Shown: piece after piece, positions 10,756-18,158 of the stretch | Numbering within the stretch: position 1 is the stretch's first letter | How the letters are laid out: each line of letters begins with the position of its first letter | Assembly: GCA_001442925.1 (NCBI GenBank) | Contig: LDXX01000012.1 | Span: 1 to 43,517 of the forward strand | From: Candidatus Kryptonium thompsonii | GTDB taxonomy: Bacteria; Bacteroidota; Ignavibacteria; Kryptoniales; Kryptoniaceae | Direction of reading: 5' to 3' | DNA: 43,517 nt | Notes under the pieces: model-generated | What the model saw: only the letters and a program-made list of their open reading frames with translations | What the model was told of the DNA's origin: nothing | Databases searched by the model: none | Program-made: the position numbers and the translations under genes

Positions 10756-10787
10756 AAAAAAAGGTCTCAGAAATCTGAGACCTTTTT
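10756..10787 (-). terminator. Intrinsic terminator after tsf
   Basis: A perfect 8-base GC-containing stem GGTCTCAG / CTGAGACC (10763-10770 and 10775-10782) with an AAAT loop is flanked by an A-run on the left (10756-10762) and a T-run on the right (10783-10787). It begins at the tsf stop codon. On the minus strand the stem is followed by seven U, so it should end the rpsB-tsf message. The flanking A and T runs would also let it work in the other direction. Confidence 0.85.
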
Positions 10788-11392
10788 CACTTATCCACAT
10801 CCTCCCCAAGATAATACCTCACAAAGCGCCTGATCACAATGTTTTCACCAAATTTAGCAGCAGCCTCATGGATCAAATCCCTTACCGTCTTGCCTTGATC
10901 TTTTATAAATGGTTGATCAAGAAGACATACCTCCTCAAAGAACTTTTCAAGTTTTCCTTGAGCAATTTTCTCAGCCACATCTTCGGGTTTGCCCTCAGCG
11001 AGCGCCTGCGCTTTGTAAATTTCATACTCCTTTTTTACAACTTCCTCTGGCAATTGCTCCCTGCTTATAACCTTCGGATTCATTGCGGTGATTTGCATTG
11101 CTATATCGTGAGCCAATTGTTTAAATTCTTCAGTTCTTGCCACAAAATCAGTCTCACAATTAATTTCAACAATCGCTCCAACTCTGCCACCCGCATGTAT
11201 ATAAGCTTCGACAAGTCCTTGTTTTGTCTCCCTATTCGCATGCTTTTCGAGAACAGATGCTCCTCTCTTCCTTAAGTATTCTATTGCTTTCTCAATATCA
11301 CCATTTGTCTCCATAAGTGCTTTTTTACAGTCCATTACACCAGCGCCGGTTTTCTCGCGCAGTGCCTTTATTTGTTCAAGCGTTATTTCCAT
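10787..11392 (-). CDS. tsf: Elongation factor Ts (short form)
   Basis: EF-Ts exchanges GDP for GTP on EF-Tu. The N-terminal UBA-like domain and the hallmark TGAGVMDCKKALMETNGD are clear (about residues 15-33), as is INCETDFVAR in the core. At 201 residues it is the compact form with a reduced C-terminal core, common in thermophiles and several non-proteobacterial phyla; the E. coli protein is about 283. It follows rpsB by 24 bases, the conserved rpsB-tsf pair. Confidence 0.97.
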   Translation of the reverse strand: MEITLEQIKALREKTGAGVMDCKKALMETNGDIEKAIEYLRKRGASVLEKHANRETKQGLVEAYIHAGGRVGAIVEINCETDFVARTEEFKQLAHDIAMQITAMNPKVISREQLPEEVVKKEYEIYKAQALAEGKPEDVAEKIAQGKLEKFFEEVCLLDQPFIKDQGKTVRDLIHEAAAKFGENIVIRRFVRYYLGEDVDK

Positions 11393-11416: not shown

Positions 11417-12139
11417 TTACTTTTGTTCAGTTTCAACTAAAGATCTCTCAGATTCAAGAACAGCTTTTGCCTCAAGGATTGCATCAGTAAAAACTTTGGT
11501 GATAAGTTGAATTGATTTTATAGCGTCGTCATTCGCAGGTATTGGATAATTAACCAAGTCAGGATCACAGTTTGTATCCAGCATTGCAAAAATTGGGATG
11601 TTCAATTTTCTTGCTTCGGAGACAGCGATATGCTCTTTCTTGATATCAACTATGTAAACTGCCCCAGGCAAAGATTCCATATCTCTTATCCCACCAAGAA
11701 TTTTCTGATATTTTTCCTTCTCGCGTAGAATCTTCAATCTTTCCTTTTTCGTAAGCTCGTCTATCGTTCCATCTGCTTCCATCTTTTCAATGTTTTGCAG
11801 TTTCTTAACACTTTTCTTTATCGTTACAAAATTCGTCAATGTTCCACCAAGCCATCTCTCAATCACATAAGGCATCCCTGCCCTTTCAGCTTCCGTCCTT
11901 ATAATTTCCCTTGCTTGTTTCTTTGTGCCAACAAATAGAACTTGTTTTCCTTGCAATACAATCTTTTTAACTTCCTCACAAGCGATGTCAAGGTATTCTT
12001 GTGTTTTCTTCAAATCAATGATATGAATGCCGTTCTTCTCCATAAAAATAAACGGCTTCATCTTGGGATTCCATCGGCGGGTCAAATGTCCGAAATGCAC
12101 TCCCGCTTCAAGCAACTGCTGAAGCTCAACTCTCGGCAT
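11417..12139 (-). CDS. rpsB: 30S ribosomal protein S2
   Basis: The 240-residue protein matches S2, which binds the small subunit near the h26-h36 region and S1. The diagnostic motifs [20 protein letters not shown]-like N-terminus, [14 protein letters not shown], and the C-terminal NPIPANDDA-like [15 protein letters not shown] are present. The ribosome-binding site ACGGAGGAAAA lies before ATG. The 146 bases between rpsI and rpsB are mostly taken up by a structured RNA that is a candidate S2 autoregulatory leader. Confidence 0.97.
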
Positions 12140-12176
12140 AAAAATTTTCCTCCGTTTTTAGTTTTGGTTTATCCTC

Positions 12177-12263
12177 TACTCTCCTCACATCTTTGCGGAA
12201 TTCGGAGAAACCTCCGAACACCACCGCAAAGATTATCCCGGCTCGCCCGGGACTTGGAGAGTA
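12177..12263 (-). ncRNA. Structured leader RNA of rpsB (three-way junction), candidate S2-responsive element
   Basis: The minus-strand transcript between rpsI and rpsB can fold into a closed three-way junction. P1 pairs 12177-12184 with 12256-12263 (8 bp). Inside it, one arm pairs 12236-12241 with 12247-12252 (TCCCGG/CCGGGA, 5-base loop). The other arm pairs 12189-12198 with 12224-12233 (ATCTTTGCGG/CCGCAAAGAT, 10 bp) and is capped by a hairpin 12201-12207/12212-12218 (TTCGGAG/CTCCGAA). All four helices are perfect. No U-tract follows, so it is not a terminator. It ends 38 bases before the rpsB ATG. S2 autoregulation through the rpsB leader is known in gammaproteobacteria; whether this unrelated-looking fold does the same is inference. 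Confidence 0.8.
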
Positions 12264-12285
12264 TGCGAGATGAATTTTAACAATA

Positions 12286-12678
12286 TTATCTCTTTGAGAA
12301 CTGAAATCTTTTTCTCGCCTTGGGTTGTCCATACTTTTTGCGCTCAACCATTCTCGGATCTCGTGTCAAAAGTCCATACTGACGCAAAATTTTTCTGTAT
12401 GTCTCATCAACCTTTAAAAGAGCTCGCGCTATACCAAGTCTTATCGCGCCCGCTTGGCCAGTTAAACCACCACCTTCAACCCTTGCAATCACATCAAATT
12501 GTCCAAGCGTATTTGTCACAACTAAAGGTTGAATTATATCAACACGGTGTGCTTCAATTGGGAAATAATTTTCAAAATCCCTATTATTAACAATTATCTT
12601 TCCTGTCCCATGAACCAAACGAACTCTTGCAACTGATGTTTTTCTCCTCCCAACAGCATCGTATGAGACTACAGCCAT
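12286..12678 (-). CDS. rpsI: 30S ribosomal protein S9
   Basis: The 130-residue protein has the normal S9 length. It has [19 protein letters not shown] near the N-terminus, a central [19 protein letters not shown], and the basic C-terminal tail ending RFQFSKR, which in S9 reaches the P-site tRNA. It follows rplM by 25 bases in the universal rplM-rpsI order. Confidence 0.98.
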
Positions 12679-13250: not shown

Positions 13251-14666
13251 TTATCTAACCCTCTCTAAAACCTTACCAACAACATAAACCAAAGTAGAAA
13301 CTATCAACCCTGGGAACATCGGTTCAAGCCCAAATGGATAAATAGGAACCCCATCCGAAGACTTAAAAATCTGTCCAATTGCAAACGAAGCAAATGAAGA
13401 AACGAATCCAGAAACCATTATTAAAAATGCATACTTTGGACTTGGTGCTAAACCCTCAAAATAGCTTGTAACAACAGGAATTAAAAGTCCAGGTATAGTC
13501 AAAGTCCCGATTATATACCAAAGATCCACGACAGATGGGAAATAAATGGCAAGTAAGATTGATACAACAGATGTTATTACAAGCCCAACTTTTGTATAAA
13601 GGTTTATCTGGCTTACTTGATTATGCTTCTTCTTTATCCTCCAGATTATATCGTTCCCAATTATGGTAGCCGAAATAAAAACTAAAGTGTTAAGGGTCGA
13701 CATAATCGTTGCGAGCATTCCGATATAAAATAATCCCTTTGCCACCTTAGGCAACACAACCTCAGCAAGCACAGGATAAGCCATAAGTGGTTGTTCAAGT
13801 TCGGGTAATATCGCCCTTGAATATAATCCAGCAGTTATCGTCATAAAATCAAAAATCATCCAAAATAAAATTGAAATTAAAATCCCATACTTTGCCACCC
13901 TCTCATTTTTCGCTGCATAGCATCTCTGATAAAAACCTGGATCAACAAGCGTCCATATGGCTATTAAAAACCAGGCGACTATATACTGAATAGAGTTCCC
14001 ACCTGTCAAACTCAATATTTCCTTGGGAACATTGGCAACAATAAAATCAATCCAACCGTATTTTAAACCTGCAAATGGAATTATTAAACTGAACCCTAAA
14101 AACATAAGGAAAAACTCTAAAATATCTGTATAAACATCGGCTCTAAAGCCACCTACAAAAAGATAACTTGTTGAAATAACAGTACTTATTACAACACTCA
14201 ATTTAAAATCTAGCCCAAATATAATTTGCAAAAGAACACCGAGCATCAAGAAGTAAGGCGCTGGAGTAACAAGTATAAGTGTTAAAATTGTACCGAAAAA
14301 TGATGTTTTTTTATCATATATTTGAGCAAGGCGTTCTGGTATTGTGAAAAGATTTGATTTACGAACTTTGCCCGCAAGCATAAAAGCAAAAATTGCTCCA
14401 AAGATGTAATAAGGTAAACCAAAAACCACCCAAGCTGATAAACCGTGTTTATAAGTAAACTCCCCAACACCTAAAATTCCACCATACCAAGTTGAAACAA
14501 GGGTTGCAACAAACATTGGAAGAGTTAAACTTCTACCAGCAAGAAGATACTCCTCAACGCTATCAGCATCATCATTCCTTTTCTTAGCAGTAAATCCAAC
14601 ATAAAGAACACCAATAAAATACAACACAATAAGAACAACATCTTCTATCGCTAAATTAACTCTCAT
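13251..14666 (-). CDS. Sodium:solute symporter, candidate inner-membrane thiamine transporter
   Basis: The 471-residue protein has about 13 membrane segments and SSS-family hallmarks, including EEYLLAGRSLTLPMF near the N-terminus and GGFRADVYTDILEFFLMFLG in the middle. Such carriers use a sodium gradient. Its ATG overlaps the stop of the thiamine pyrophosphokinase gene (ATGA), and the whole operon sits behind a TPP riboswitch, so thiamine or a thiamine precursor is the likely substrate. Riboswitch-linked SSS proteins (called ThiV in comparative-genomics work) have been predicted as thiamine-related transporters, but this assignment rests on context. No PnuT gene is present in the operon, which is the usual partner in Bacteroidetes. 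Confidence 0.85.
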   Translation of the reverse strand: MRVNLAIEDVVLIVLYFIGVLYVGFTAKKRNDDADSVEEYLLAGRSLTLPMFVATLVSTWYGGILGVGEFTYKHGLSAWVVFGLPYYIFGAIFAFMLAGKVRKSNLFTIPERLAQIYDKKTSFFGTILTLILVTPAPYFLMLGVLLQIIFGLDFKLSVVISTVISTSYLFVGGFRADVYTDILEFFLMFLGFSLIIPFAGLKYGWIDFIVANVPKEILSLTGGNSIQYIVAWFLIAIWTLVDPGFYQRCYAAKNERVAKYGILISILFWMIFDFMTITAGLYSRAILPELEQPLMAYPVLAEVVLPKVAKGLFYIGMLATIMSTLNTLVFISATIIGNDIIWRIKKKHNQVSQINLYTKVGLVITSVVSILLAIYFPSVVDLWYIIGTLTIPGLLIPVVTSYFEGLAPSPKYAFLIMVSGFVSSFASFAIGQIFKSSDGVPIYPFGLEPMFPGLIVSTLVYVVGKVLERVR

Positions 14667-15298
14667 AACCTTTCAGAAGTTATTTTAAAAACAAACACAC
14701 CTCCTTTCCCGATGTGAATTGAAACTTTGCGCCCAATCGCAACATTGCTTACACCTCTACCGCAGAAAGTTAAATTTTCATTCTTAAGTTTAAATTTTAA
14801 GCCAGTTGTCCTTAAAATAAACGCTCTCCTTCCAAGTGGAATAAGCGAGATGATGTCACCCTTATTTGCTACAAATGAGAATTTCTCTGTCGCAAAAAAT
14901 ATCTCGCTACCTTCATCGATTATCTTCAGATTTGCTTTCTTATGATAATTAACAAGTACGCTAAGATTCCCAAGATTATGGTCAACTCTGGTTCCAATAG
15001 TTGAAACTATATCAATACTTGTATATCCTTTGCTAATCAAAAACTTAACTGATTTTTCTATATCCGTGCTGTTTTGATCCGAATCGTATATAATTTCCGT
15101 CCCTTTCTCTCGAAAGAAGTTCAACACAGTTTTATCAACGGAATCAAGATCCCCAATTATAAAATCAGGTCGAATTTTAAATCTATATGCTATATTTGCG
15201 CCACCATCTGCACAAGCAATGACATCATAATTTCGAACTATTTTTCTCAAAAATCGCTTCGATGGGGCATCGCCATTGCATATTAAAATAGCCTTCAA
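14663..15298 (-). CDS. Thiamine pyrophosphokinase
   Basis: The enzyme transfers pyrophosphate from ATP to thiamine to make TPP, the salvage step. Motifs visible are AILICNGDAPS, the acidic CADGGAN, PDFIIGDLDSV, and DQNSTDIEKSVKFL, then the thiamine-binding C-terminal domain. I place the start at the TTG at 15296-15298, because GGAGG lies 8 bases upstream and the product begins MKAILICNG like its relatives. The TTG two codons earlier is only two bases from the same site. The gene sits between the TonB-dependent receptor and the symporter under one TPP riboswitch, so incoming thiamine would be activated at once. Confidence 0.93.
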   Translation of the reverse strand: MKAILICNGDAPSKRFLRKIVRNYDVIACADGGANIAYRFKIRPDFIIGDLDSVDKTVLNFFREKGTEIIYDSDQNSTDIEKSVKFLISKGYTSIDIVSTIGTRVDHNLGNLSVLVNYHKKANLKIIDEGSEIFFATEKFSFVANKGDIISLIPLGRRAFILRTTGLKFKLKNENLTFCGRGVSNVAIGRKVSIHIGKGGVFVFKITSERL

Positions 15299-15340
15299 AA
15301 TCAATACCTCCGATTTTTAGCAAGCCGAACAAATTTTAAT

Positions 15341-17857
15341 TTAAAGTTCAAAACCGACACCTACAAAATAATTTCTTTCTGCCCCAGGATAAAATTCATC
15401 TCCAACACCTGAACCAGCATAAAGTGCATTGAAAAGATTATTAATTTGAATCTTCAACTCAAAATTATTGAGCCCAAGAATTTTATCAAATCTATATCCC
15501 ACCGTCAAGTCGAAAACCTTATAGGAATCCACTTTTCTATCTATACCGCCGACATTATTTGAAGGGACGAGATTAAAATTGTCAGTGTAAAAATCACCGA
15601 CATACTTACCTAAAATTGAGATCAACAATCCGCCTTTTCTGTAAGAAATTCTCAATGAACCCATGTAATCTGGAAAACCAGCGATTCTTTTTCCATCAAG
15701 AGCAATTCTTTGGGGTGTTGAATATCTCTCCCCTGTATATGGATTTTTCCACACATAAACGCCATGCTTTACAATTTTATTTCTACTAATTGTTGCATTG
15801 CCACCTATCTCAAATCCTTCAATTAGTAAATCCTTTATTTCAGCAACCAATTCAACTCCAATATGCCTTGTCCTCTCGGCGTTACCAACAATTGGATCTC
15901 CAAATATGTTCAACTGTCCACTTTTCACAAGTTCATCCCTAAAGTCCATGTAATAAAAGTTAGCAATAAATTTATAACTATCGCTGAAATAACCCCCGCC
16001 AAATTCAATGTCAAAAAGTCTCTCTGGTTTAACCAGTGGCTTTGTGAAATCAAAACTTCCATCTGGCTTAACTTCAAAATTTGGTTTCTTGCCCCACGGA
16101 TACCAATACCCATCACTTGCATCATACAAATCCCTTCTGCTTGGCTCCCTGCTTGTGATTGAAAAACTTCCATATACATTTATATTCTGGGTTAAGTCAT
16201 AACTTATACCGATTTTCGAGTTTAAAAAGCGAAATGGCACAGAAAACTCGTTGCTTATCCATTTACCTGAATTGTAGTCGTAAAATTCTTTCTCGTTATA
16301 AACCTTGTACCTATTATAAACAAACTGCAAACCCAACATCAACCTCAAATCTGGTCTGAACTTGAAGAGTTCGTAGAGATAAAATGAAAAGATATCTTTT
16401 GCACCTTTGTACTCATAAAATCTATAATCACTTGGCAATCCTTCGGGAAGATTCTGAGCCCAAACGATTTTACCCCAGTGAAATCCAGTGTGCTTTCTAA
16501 GCTCAGCACCAAGTGTTAATTCTCCCTTCCCATGCTTAAGCATCAATCTCGGCAACCATCCATATTGATTTAAATCGATGAAATATCTTGCTATTGCTTC
16601 ACCAGGATTTCTCGATGGGGTTGTAAAGCCATACTTTAAAGCATAAGGACTTGAAAGACGGAAATAAACCGTATCAGCCCACGAAGCATCCATATCCCAA
16701 AAACCAACCCCGCGGATGTAAAATAGAGTATTATTGAGAATCAAGTTATCACTTAACTTCAATTCATGTAGAAGCTCATAATGTGGCTGGCTAAAGTTTT
16801 CAATCTCGTCATCTCGGGTTGTAACATCCATATAATTCAAATTCGCTCTTCTTTTGCTTTTATCTTTTACCCATGACTTTGGAATTCCACGATAAACTAG
16901 ATGATCTTCAAAGGGCCCACCATAAAGATGAATTTGGGTTGTCATATTATCGTCATATCTTATCGCACTTAAAAAGTAAGATGGGAATTTAGCCCATGAC
17001 TTTTCCCTGTAACCATCTGTTGCTATGTAAGAAAGGCGAGCGTAAAGTGAATACCTGTTTTCAATCAATCCTGAATTTATCGCGATTGAATGTTTTTTTG
17101 TATTGTAGCTTCCGTAGCCAGTGAACAGGGAAATTTTTGGTTCAATAGAGAAATTTGAAGTTATGATATTAACAGAACCACCAATTGCTGGTGGTCCGTA
17201 AAATGCGCTCCCAGCCCCACGCTGAATTTGAATTTTTCCAGCGCTTGCAAGCAGATCAGGCATATCAAGCCAGTAAACACCATGGTCCTCGGGATCATTT
17301 TGTGGAATTCCATTAACAAGAACAGAAATTCGCCTTTGGTCAAAGCCACGCAAATTCAGATAGTTGTATCCTATCCCATTGCCTGACCATGAGTAAGACA
17401 AAACCGACGGGAGTTCCGAAAGCAAAATTGGAACATCTTGTGTGGTATAAAAATCTTTTATCTGCTGTTTTTCAAGATTTGAAAAAACGACAGGGGATTC
17501 TTTCTCTGAAGCTATAAGAGCGGTAACCACAACGGTTTGCGATGGAAGCACCGTTGGTTCCAAATAAAAAACTAAATTTATCTCAGCCTGCGGAGCCAAT
17601 TCAACTATCTTTTTCTGTTTCGCATAACCAATAAAACTTGCAACAACATTTATCCTCCCCGCGGGGACATTATTTATTTCAAAATAACCCTTTTGATCCG
17701 TTGCCGAGCCAAGGGCTAAATTTTCAACATAAACATTTGCGTTCGGGAGTGGTTTCCTCGTTTCCGAATCAAAAACATAACCCTTTATTTTGCCTTGTGT
17801 AAACGCGAAGGATATAAAGAGTTGCAAAAGCAGAATTTGAATTAATATTTTCTTCAT
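15341..17857 (-). CDS. TonB-dependent outer-membrane receptor, probably for thiamine
   Basis: The 838-residue protein has a signal peptide (about residues 1-20), a carboxypeptidase-regulatory-like beta domain (about 22-105, starting GKIKGYVFDSETRKPLPNAN), a plug (about 110-235, with NLRGFDQRRISVLVNGIPQN and IQRGAGSAFYGPPAIGGSVNI) and a C-terminal 22-strand-type barrel ending in aromatic GVGFEL. It would import a scarce ligand across the outer membrane with TonB-ExbBD energy. The TPP riboswitch in its leader makes thiamine the likely ligand. A GGAGAG ribosome-binding site precedes ATG. Confidence 0.92.
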   Translation of the reverse strand: MKKILIQILLLQLFISFAFTQGKIKGYVFDSETRKPLPNANVYVENLALGSATDQKGYFEINNVPAGRINVVASFIGYAKQKKIVELAPQAEINLVFYLEPTVLPSQTVVVTALIASEKESPVVFSNLEKQQIKDFYTTQDVPILLSELPSVLSYSWSGNGIGYNYLNLRGFDQRRISVLVNGIPQNDPEDHGVYWLDMPDLLASAGKIQIQRGAGSAFYGPPAIGGSVNIITSNFSIEPKISLFTGYGSYNTKKHSIAINSGLIENRYSLYARLSYIATDGYREKSWAKFPSYFLSAIRYDDNMTTQIHLYGGPFEDHLVYRGIPKSWVKDKSKRRANLNYMDVTTRDDEIENFSQPHYELLHELKLSDNLILNNTLFYIRGVGFWDMDASWADTVYFRLSSPYALKYGFTTPSRNPGEAIARYFIDLNQYGWLPRLMLKHGKGELTLGAELRKHTGFHWGKIVWAQNLPEGLPSDYRFYEYKGAKDIFSFYLYELFKFRPDLRLMLGLQFVYNRYKVYNEKEFYDYNSGKWISNEFSVPFRFLNSKIGISYDLTQNINVYGSFSITSREPSRRDLYDASDGYWYPWGKKPNFEVKPDGSFDFTKPLVKPERLFDIEFGGGYFSDSYKFIANFYYMDFRDELVKSGQLNIFGDPIVGNAERTRHIGVELVAEIKDLLIEGFEIGGNATISRNKIVKHGVYVWKNPYTGERYSTPQRIALDGKRIAGFPDYMGSLRISYRKGGLLISILGKYVGDFYTDNFNLVPSNNVGGIDRKVDSYKVFDLTVGYRFDKILGLNNFELKIQINNLFNALYAGSGVGDEFYPGAERNYFVGVGFEL

Positions 17858-17948
17858 GGTTTTATCTCTCCACTTTTGTTTTTTGATTTTTATTTAAAGC
17901 CCGCGGGGGTTAGAAAGCTGAGATGGGATATAAGAAGGGAAACAGAAT

Positions 17949-17993
17949 AAAAAAGCCGTTTTCCAAAAACAGCGGTAGGAAAACGGCTTTTTA
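17949..17993 (-). terminator. Riboswitch-controlled intrinsic terminator
   Basis: A perfect 15-base stem (17950-17964 with 17978-17992, core GCCGTTTTCC/GGAAAACGGC) with a 13-base loop ends in a U-run on the minus strand. It lies between the TPP aptamer and the receptor gene. Its 5' strand can instead pair with the 3' end of the aptamer, so it is the expression platform: TPP bound favours termination, TPP absent favours antitermination. Confidence 0.9.
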
Positions 17994-18005
17994 ACCCTCA
18001 ATTAC

Positions 18006-18092
<87 letters not shown>

Positions 18093-18158
18093 CACATAAC
18101 CGTTAAAGAACAAACTTAAGCACTGTAAATTTAACACATAAAAAGATAAAAAACAAAC

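Follow-up and report, generated by a model that had tools for sequence, protein, structure and literature searches.

Between the ribosomal protein genes rpsI and rpsB of a hot-spring bacterium, Candidatus Kryptonia, lies a compact minus-strand element (12177-12263), which raises the question of what this RNA is and how it might act on the genes around it. The window, i.e. the whole stretch of DNA analysed, spans 43,517 nucleotides, and its minus-strand gene order at this site is rplM, rpsI, the element, rpsB, tsf, pyrH and frr; the identities of S9, S2 and EF-Ts were confirmed by Pfam, and the names rplM, pyrH and frr rest on the translations. The most probable answer, to which we give a probability of roughly 0.88, is that the element is a cis-acting S2 leader of rpsB(-tsf) that belongs to the rpsB-motif/t44 family and represses through binding of S2. 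The features of the locus are as follows:

12286 to 12678, minus strand: rpsI, ribosomal protein S9, upstream gene (Pfam PF00380)
12173 to 12265, minus strand: whole leader core, extent of model R1 (CAUAC...GUAGAGG)
12256 to 12263, minus strand: 5' strand of P1, UACUCUCC, partner 12177-12184, with a conserved CA just before it
12235 to 12253, minus strand: extra arm GUCCCGG/CCGGGAU, which creates the three-way junction
12224 to 12233, minus strand: 5' strand of the lower helix, AUCUUUGCGG, partner 12189-12198
12220 to 12223, minus strand: UGGU bulge, 5' strand of the pseudoknot; GGU is invariant in Kryptonia
12200 to 12219, minus strand: apical hairpin GUUCGGAG/CUCCGAAU with an invariant G.U closing pair
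12189 to 12198, minus strand: 3' strand of the lower helix, CCGCAAAGAU
12177 to 12184, minus strand: 3' strand of P1, GGAGAGUA, with a conserved GAGG (12173-12176) just after it
12165 to 12168, minus strand: ACCA, pseudoknot 3' strand, at -29 to -26 relative to the rpsB ATG
12149 to 12153, minus strand: Shine-Dalgarno sequence GGAGG of rpsB, read from the sequence
11417 to 12139, minus strand: rpsB, ribosomal protein S2, putative regulated gene and presumed ligand (Pfam PF00318, E 7e-99)
10787 to 11392, minus strand: tsf, elongation factor Ts, next downstream and presumably co-regulated (Pfam PF00889)

The minimum free energy of 12177-12263 (minus strand) was -48.8 kcal/mol, compared to a shuffled mean of -25.2 ± 3.1 (z = -7.5), and none of 200 shuffles folded as well, which agrees with the first-pass annotation that such a fold is very unlikely by chance. 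The four helices proposed there were correct in position and strand. P1 has 8 bp and the further arm 10 bp; the arm given as 6 bp has 7 bp in the minimum free energy structure (6 conserved), and the apical hairpin, given as 7 bp, has 8 bp when the G.U closing pair is counted. Nearness to the rpsB start was likewise correct, but the gap from P1 to the ATG is 37 bases in the window and not 38. The description of the element as the only GC-rich intergenic patch outside the riboswitch held broadly, since the highest 60-nt GC content was 0.60 in the element, compared to 0.58 around the TPP riboswitch, and no other estimated intergenic region of the window exceeded 0.52. No second copy of the element was found in its own genome, so a repeat or mobile element was ruled out; a search of the same genome with RF00177 gave no 16S rRNA match. 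The TPP riboswitch (17996-18095, minus strand) heads a cluster (13251-18095, minus strand) encoding a TonB-dependent receptor, a thiamin pyrophosphokinase and a sodium:solute symporter (SSF), and this position points to thiamine uptake by the receptor and the SSF protein.

The element precedes rpsB in all six Kryptonia species. P1, the lower helix and the apical hairpin were kept in the six distinct Kryptonia leaders (that of the window, L009, and L010-L014), in which 98.9% of cells were paired and both sides had changed in 10 of 32 pairs; none of 500 shuffles equalled this, and pairing fell to 50% or less when partners were slid by one column. The pairings are thus conserved in relatives with compensatory changes, as the first-pass annotation had expected of a real element. 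Across 32 leaders of the class, 92.4% of cells were paired, with 195 double changes versus 59.7 in shuffled data, in an alignment fitted to the model; alignments A3 and A4 are both of this kind, and the covariation counts allow for relatedness only in part. The three-way junction noted earlier is present in the window, but the arm that creates it is not conserved. It is wholly missing in one Kryptonia species (L014), which keeps the remainder of the leader, and L037 and most other relatives have no arm at this site; genus g2, relatives in the same order, often has much longer arms there (L028, L029, L031, L033, L034 and L038). Because L014 and most relatives do without it, the three-way junction is a peripheral elaboration of the leader. 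In one Kryptonia species (L010, genome G004), about 100 extra bases lie between the rpsI stop and the leader and the distance from leader to rpsB is unchanged, so the leader travels with rpsB. The S2 protein of the window is 94-95% identical to those of Ca. Chrysopegis kryptomonas JGI-23 (L039) and a Kryptonia MAG (L040).

Covariance models were built from the six Kryptonia leaders (R1) and from 32 leaders (R2), and every fetched copy checked in related genomes lay just upstream of rpsB. Of 95 more distant rpsB loci, R1 matched about half, and these matches fell almost without exception inside the gap upstream of rpsB. Within the class, R2 matched at least 158 of 294 genomes, with one copy each among the matches listed; in the phylum Bacteroidota, model R3 matched at least 103 of 296, again with a single copy each. 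Both are minimum figures, since stricter filters apply once a search exceeds 40 genomes. Three leaders (L027, L032 and L036) matched R2 when searched directly, and the class-wide search gave no match in their genomes (G020, G048 and G039, respectively). S2 was encoded at all 61 element-centred loci fetched from the genome searches, and in the 39 loci with a computed distance (L142-L180) its start lay 18-50 nt downstream on the same strand, with a single exception of 146 nt at a locus with a truncated flank. Since rpsI is upstream in nearly every Bacteroidota case, only the E. coli and Erysipelotrichaceae leaders, which have no rpsI adjacent upstream, show that the element follows rpsB and not rpsI.

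The fold also includes a pseudoknot that was absent from the first-pass annotation. The UGGU bulge pairs with ACCA (12168-12165), which ends some 11 nt short of the Shine-Dalgarno sequence, and the functional unit therefore extends beyond 12177. Leaders were parsed with a fixed template that sets the XXGU letters before the G.U-closed hairpin against the flank after P1, with bulges shuffled among leaders as the null. The results showed an exact complement of the leader's own bulge in 45 of 69 distinct leaders, compared to 11.8 ± 3.0 after shuffling (0/5000); the bulge/flank complements include UGGU/ACCA, CUGU/ACAG, GAGU/ACUC, CCGU/ACGG and GGGU/ACCC. With one leader per tetramer type, 6.8 of 12 were exact complements versus 2.0, a test that reduces the effect of relatedness without eliminating it. 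The E. coli leader follows the same rule (GGGGU/ACCCC). Two of the six Kryptonia species form a 4-bp pseudoknot, and the other four form just 3 bp (GGU/ACC). The partner strand in Kryptonia occupies roughly -30 to -25, with 11-13 nt between it and the Shine-Dalgarno sequence (12 nt in E. coli), and the pseudoknot leaves that sequence untouched. The partner abuts or overlaps the Shine-Dalgarno sequence in 11 of 70 leaders. In the Ignavibacteria-type leaders L056, L067, L070, L081, L083, L086, L092 and L104, the pseudoknot strand ACAGG overlaps it, from which direct masking of the Shine-Dalgarno sequence would follow.

Rfam reported only the TPP riboswitch in the window. RF00127 (t44) did not match the Kryptonia element even at E 5, and the matches over the element at E < 5 were at chance level, so no known family was reached directly; neither the element nor any match in the phylum met the gathering threshold for t44. 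Below this cut-off, RF00127 matched 24 of 296 phylum genomes, at sites that the Kryptonia-derived models match too, and the 12 of these matches that were fetched all lay directly upstream of rpsB. R2, built without these 12 leaders, matched 10 of them, and R3 matched all 24 genomes, with nine of those leaders in its training set. In E. coli, the leader (L129) carries a t44 annotation and is matched by RF00127; R2 and R3 matched neither it nor the Erysipelotrichaceae leaders. Because RF00127 misses Kryptonia and R2 and R3 miss E. coli, the link from the element to t44 runs through Bacteroidota intermediates recognised by both RF00127 and R2/R3. On the basis of these intermediate sequences, the anatomy and the gene context, we file the element under the rpsB-motif/t44 family, of which it is, judged by sequence, an S2 leader. 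The first-pass annotation could name no described family with this fold; that statement is superseded, as the fold is that of the rpsB motif/t44 plus an extra arm, and the family found is one of rpsB leaders, not one unrelated to rpsB. The comparison with known r-protein leaders in Rfam that it had suggested gave the link by way of intermediates and not by direct match.

The published rpsB motif precedes rpsB and includes a pseudoknot (Meyer et al. 2009, PMC2704228). The Kryptonia leader shares with it the position directly upstream of rpsB, a long paired stem with an internal loop, an apical stem, variable stem lengths and an NGGU junction strand that forms a pseudoknot with the 3' extension beyond P1 (UGGU/ACCA in the window). 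It differs by the extra arm in the lower internal loop; as we read the published description, P2 adjoins the pseudoknot strand. The order shared with t44 is CA-P1-internal loop-helix-NGGU-G.U-closed hairpin-P1'-GAGG-...-AACC(CC), and in both Kryptonia and E. coli roughly 12 nt separate the pseudoknot from the Shine-Dalgarno sequence. The E. coli leader has a GGGU bulge, a G.U-closed hairpin and an AACCCC partner on the same plan, and its P1 ends read CA/CAC...GUG/GAGG compared to CA/UAC...GUA/GAGG in Kryptonia. Outside the bulge, the G.U pair and the P1-end letters the sequences differ, and the Kryptonia copy lies below Rfam detection and carries the extra arm. Erysipelotrichaceae leaders upstream of rpsB (L112-L118) show the same plan (CACAC...GUGGAGG, CCGU paired with ACGG) and were reached by no model built. 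The Bacteroidia L13 leader (Eckert and Weinberg 2020, PMC7247131) occurs in the same phylum and the same rplM-rpsI(+rpsB) cluster, but it serves rplM, rpsI and sometimes rpsB, whereas the Kryptonia element stands after rpsI and directly before rpsB.

According to a 2024 review (PMC10931766), translation of rpsB-tsf in E. coli is repressed by S2, which binds the 5'UTR together with S1; deletion of a conserved bulge may abolish this control, and the Shine-Dalgarno sequence lies outside the operator, an arrangement that the gap of 11-13 nt in Kryptonia fits. By analogy, S2 binding, repression and the blocking step would be similar in Kryptonia. Excess S2 (in E. coli helped by S1) would bind the folded leader at P1, at the lower helix and at the apical hairpin, with its G.U closure and NGGU bulge, and would lock the pseudoknot between bulge and 3' flank in the A-rich stretch before the Shine-Dalgarno sequence, where the 30S subunit loads. 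Loading would then be hindered, and rpsB and the genes downstream would be translated less; with the element placed between rpsI and rpsB, S2 and EF-Ts output would be lowered and rplM-rpsI spared. The first-pass annotation's suggestion of a possible S2 autoregulatory leader has good support from the exclusive association with rpsB, the covariation and the likeness to the E. coli S2 operator.

It is improbable that this conserved intergenic RNA structure binds no protein and instead serves mRNA processing or stability between rpsI and rpsB. The element does sit within the rplM-rpsI-rpsB-tsf cluster and is very stable, but a stability hairpin needs no invariant unpaired GGU, GA, UGA and CA/GAGG, nor a covarying pseudoknot, and E. 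coli has the same anatomy before rpsB without an adjacent rpsI. Slightly less probable again is a leader for another regulator of the operon (S1, EF-Ts or S9): every copy checked directly precedes rpsB and the E. coli element is S2-regulated, although S1 assists S2 there (PMC10931766) and the EF-Ts gene follows a few of the published rpsB motifs (PMC2704228). A strong stem where two genes meet could also be a transcription attenuator or terminator governing read-through from rpsI into rpsB, yet P1 has no following U-tract, the terminator scan was empty at the element and promoter matches there were at chance level; with neither a terminator nor an internal promoter above chance, we regard this as very improbable.

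The spread of the S2 leader through Bacteroidota (Kryptonia, Ignavibacteria and others) appears to be new, as the rpsB motif was listed from Alpha- and Gammaproteobacteria, a few Epsilon-, Delta- and Betaproteobacteria, Cyanobacteria and some Firmicutes, and not from Bacteroidota (PMC2704228). The extra arm of the Kryptonia leader also appears to be new. Three E. coli r-leaders are reportedly widespread according to the abstract of Fu et al. 2013; the S2 leader may be among them, which would lower the novelty of the Bacteroidota spread. The element extends S2 feedback leaders to a phylum where the Rfam model scores below cut-off. The GGU bulge, the G.U pair and the pseudoknot come out as the invariant core, which makes the S2 recognition site testable across phyla, and the varying distance from pseudoknot to Shine-Dalgarno sequence offers natural variants for how S2 represses translation, a point that is unclear according to PMC10931766. 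More tentatively, and in our judgement at a little under even odds, the S2 leader may be a bacteria-wide, probably ancient RNA whose output step has been re-wired between lineages, with core and pseudoknot separated from the Shine-Dalgarno sequence by 11-13 nt in both Kryptonia and E. coli and overlapping it in several Ignavibacteria (CCUGU/ACAGGAG). If this is true, the Shine-Dalgarno-blind Bacteroidia would need yet another output step.
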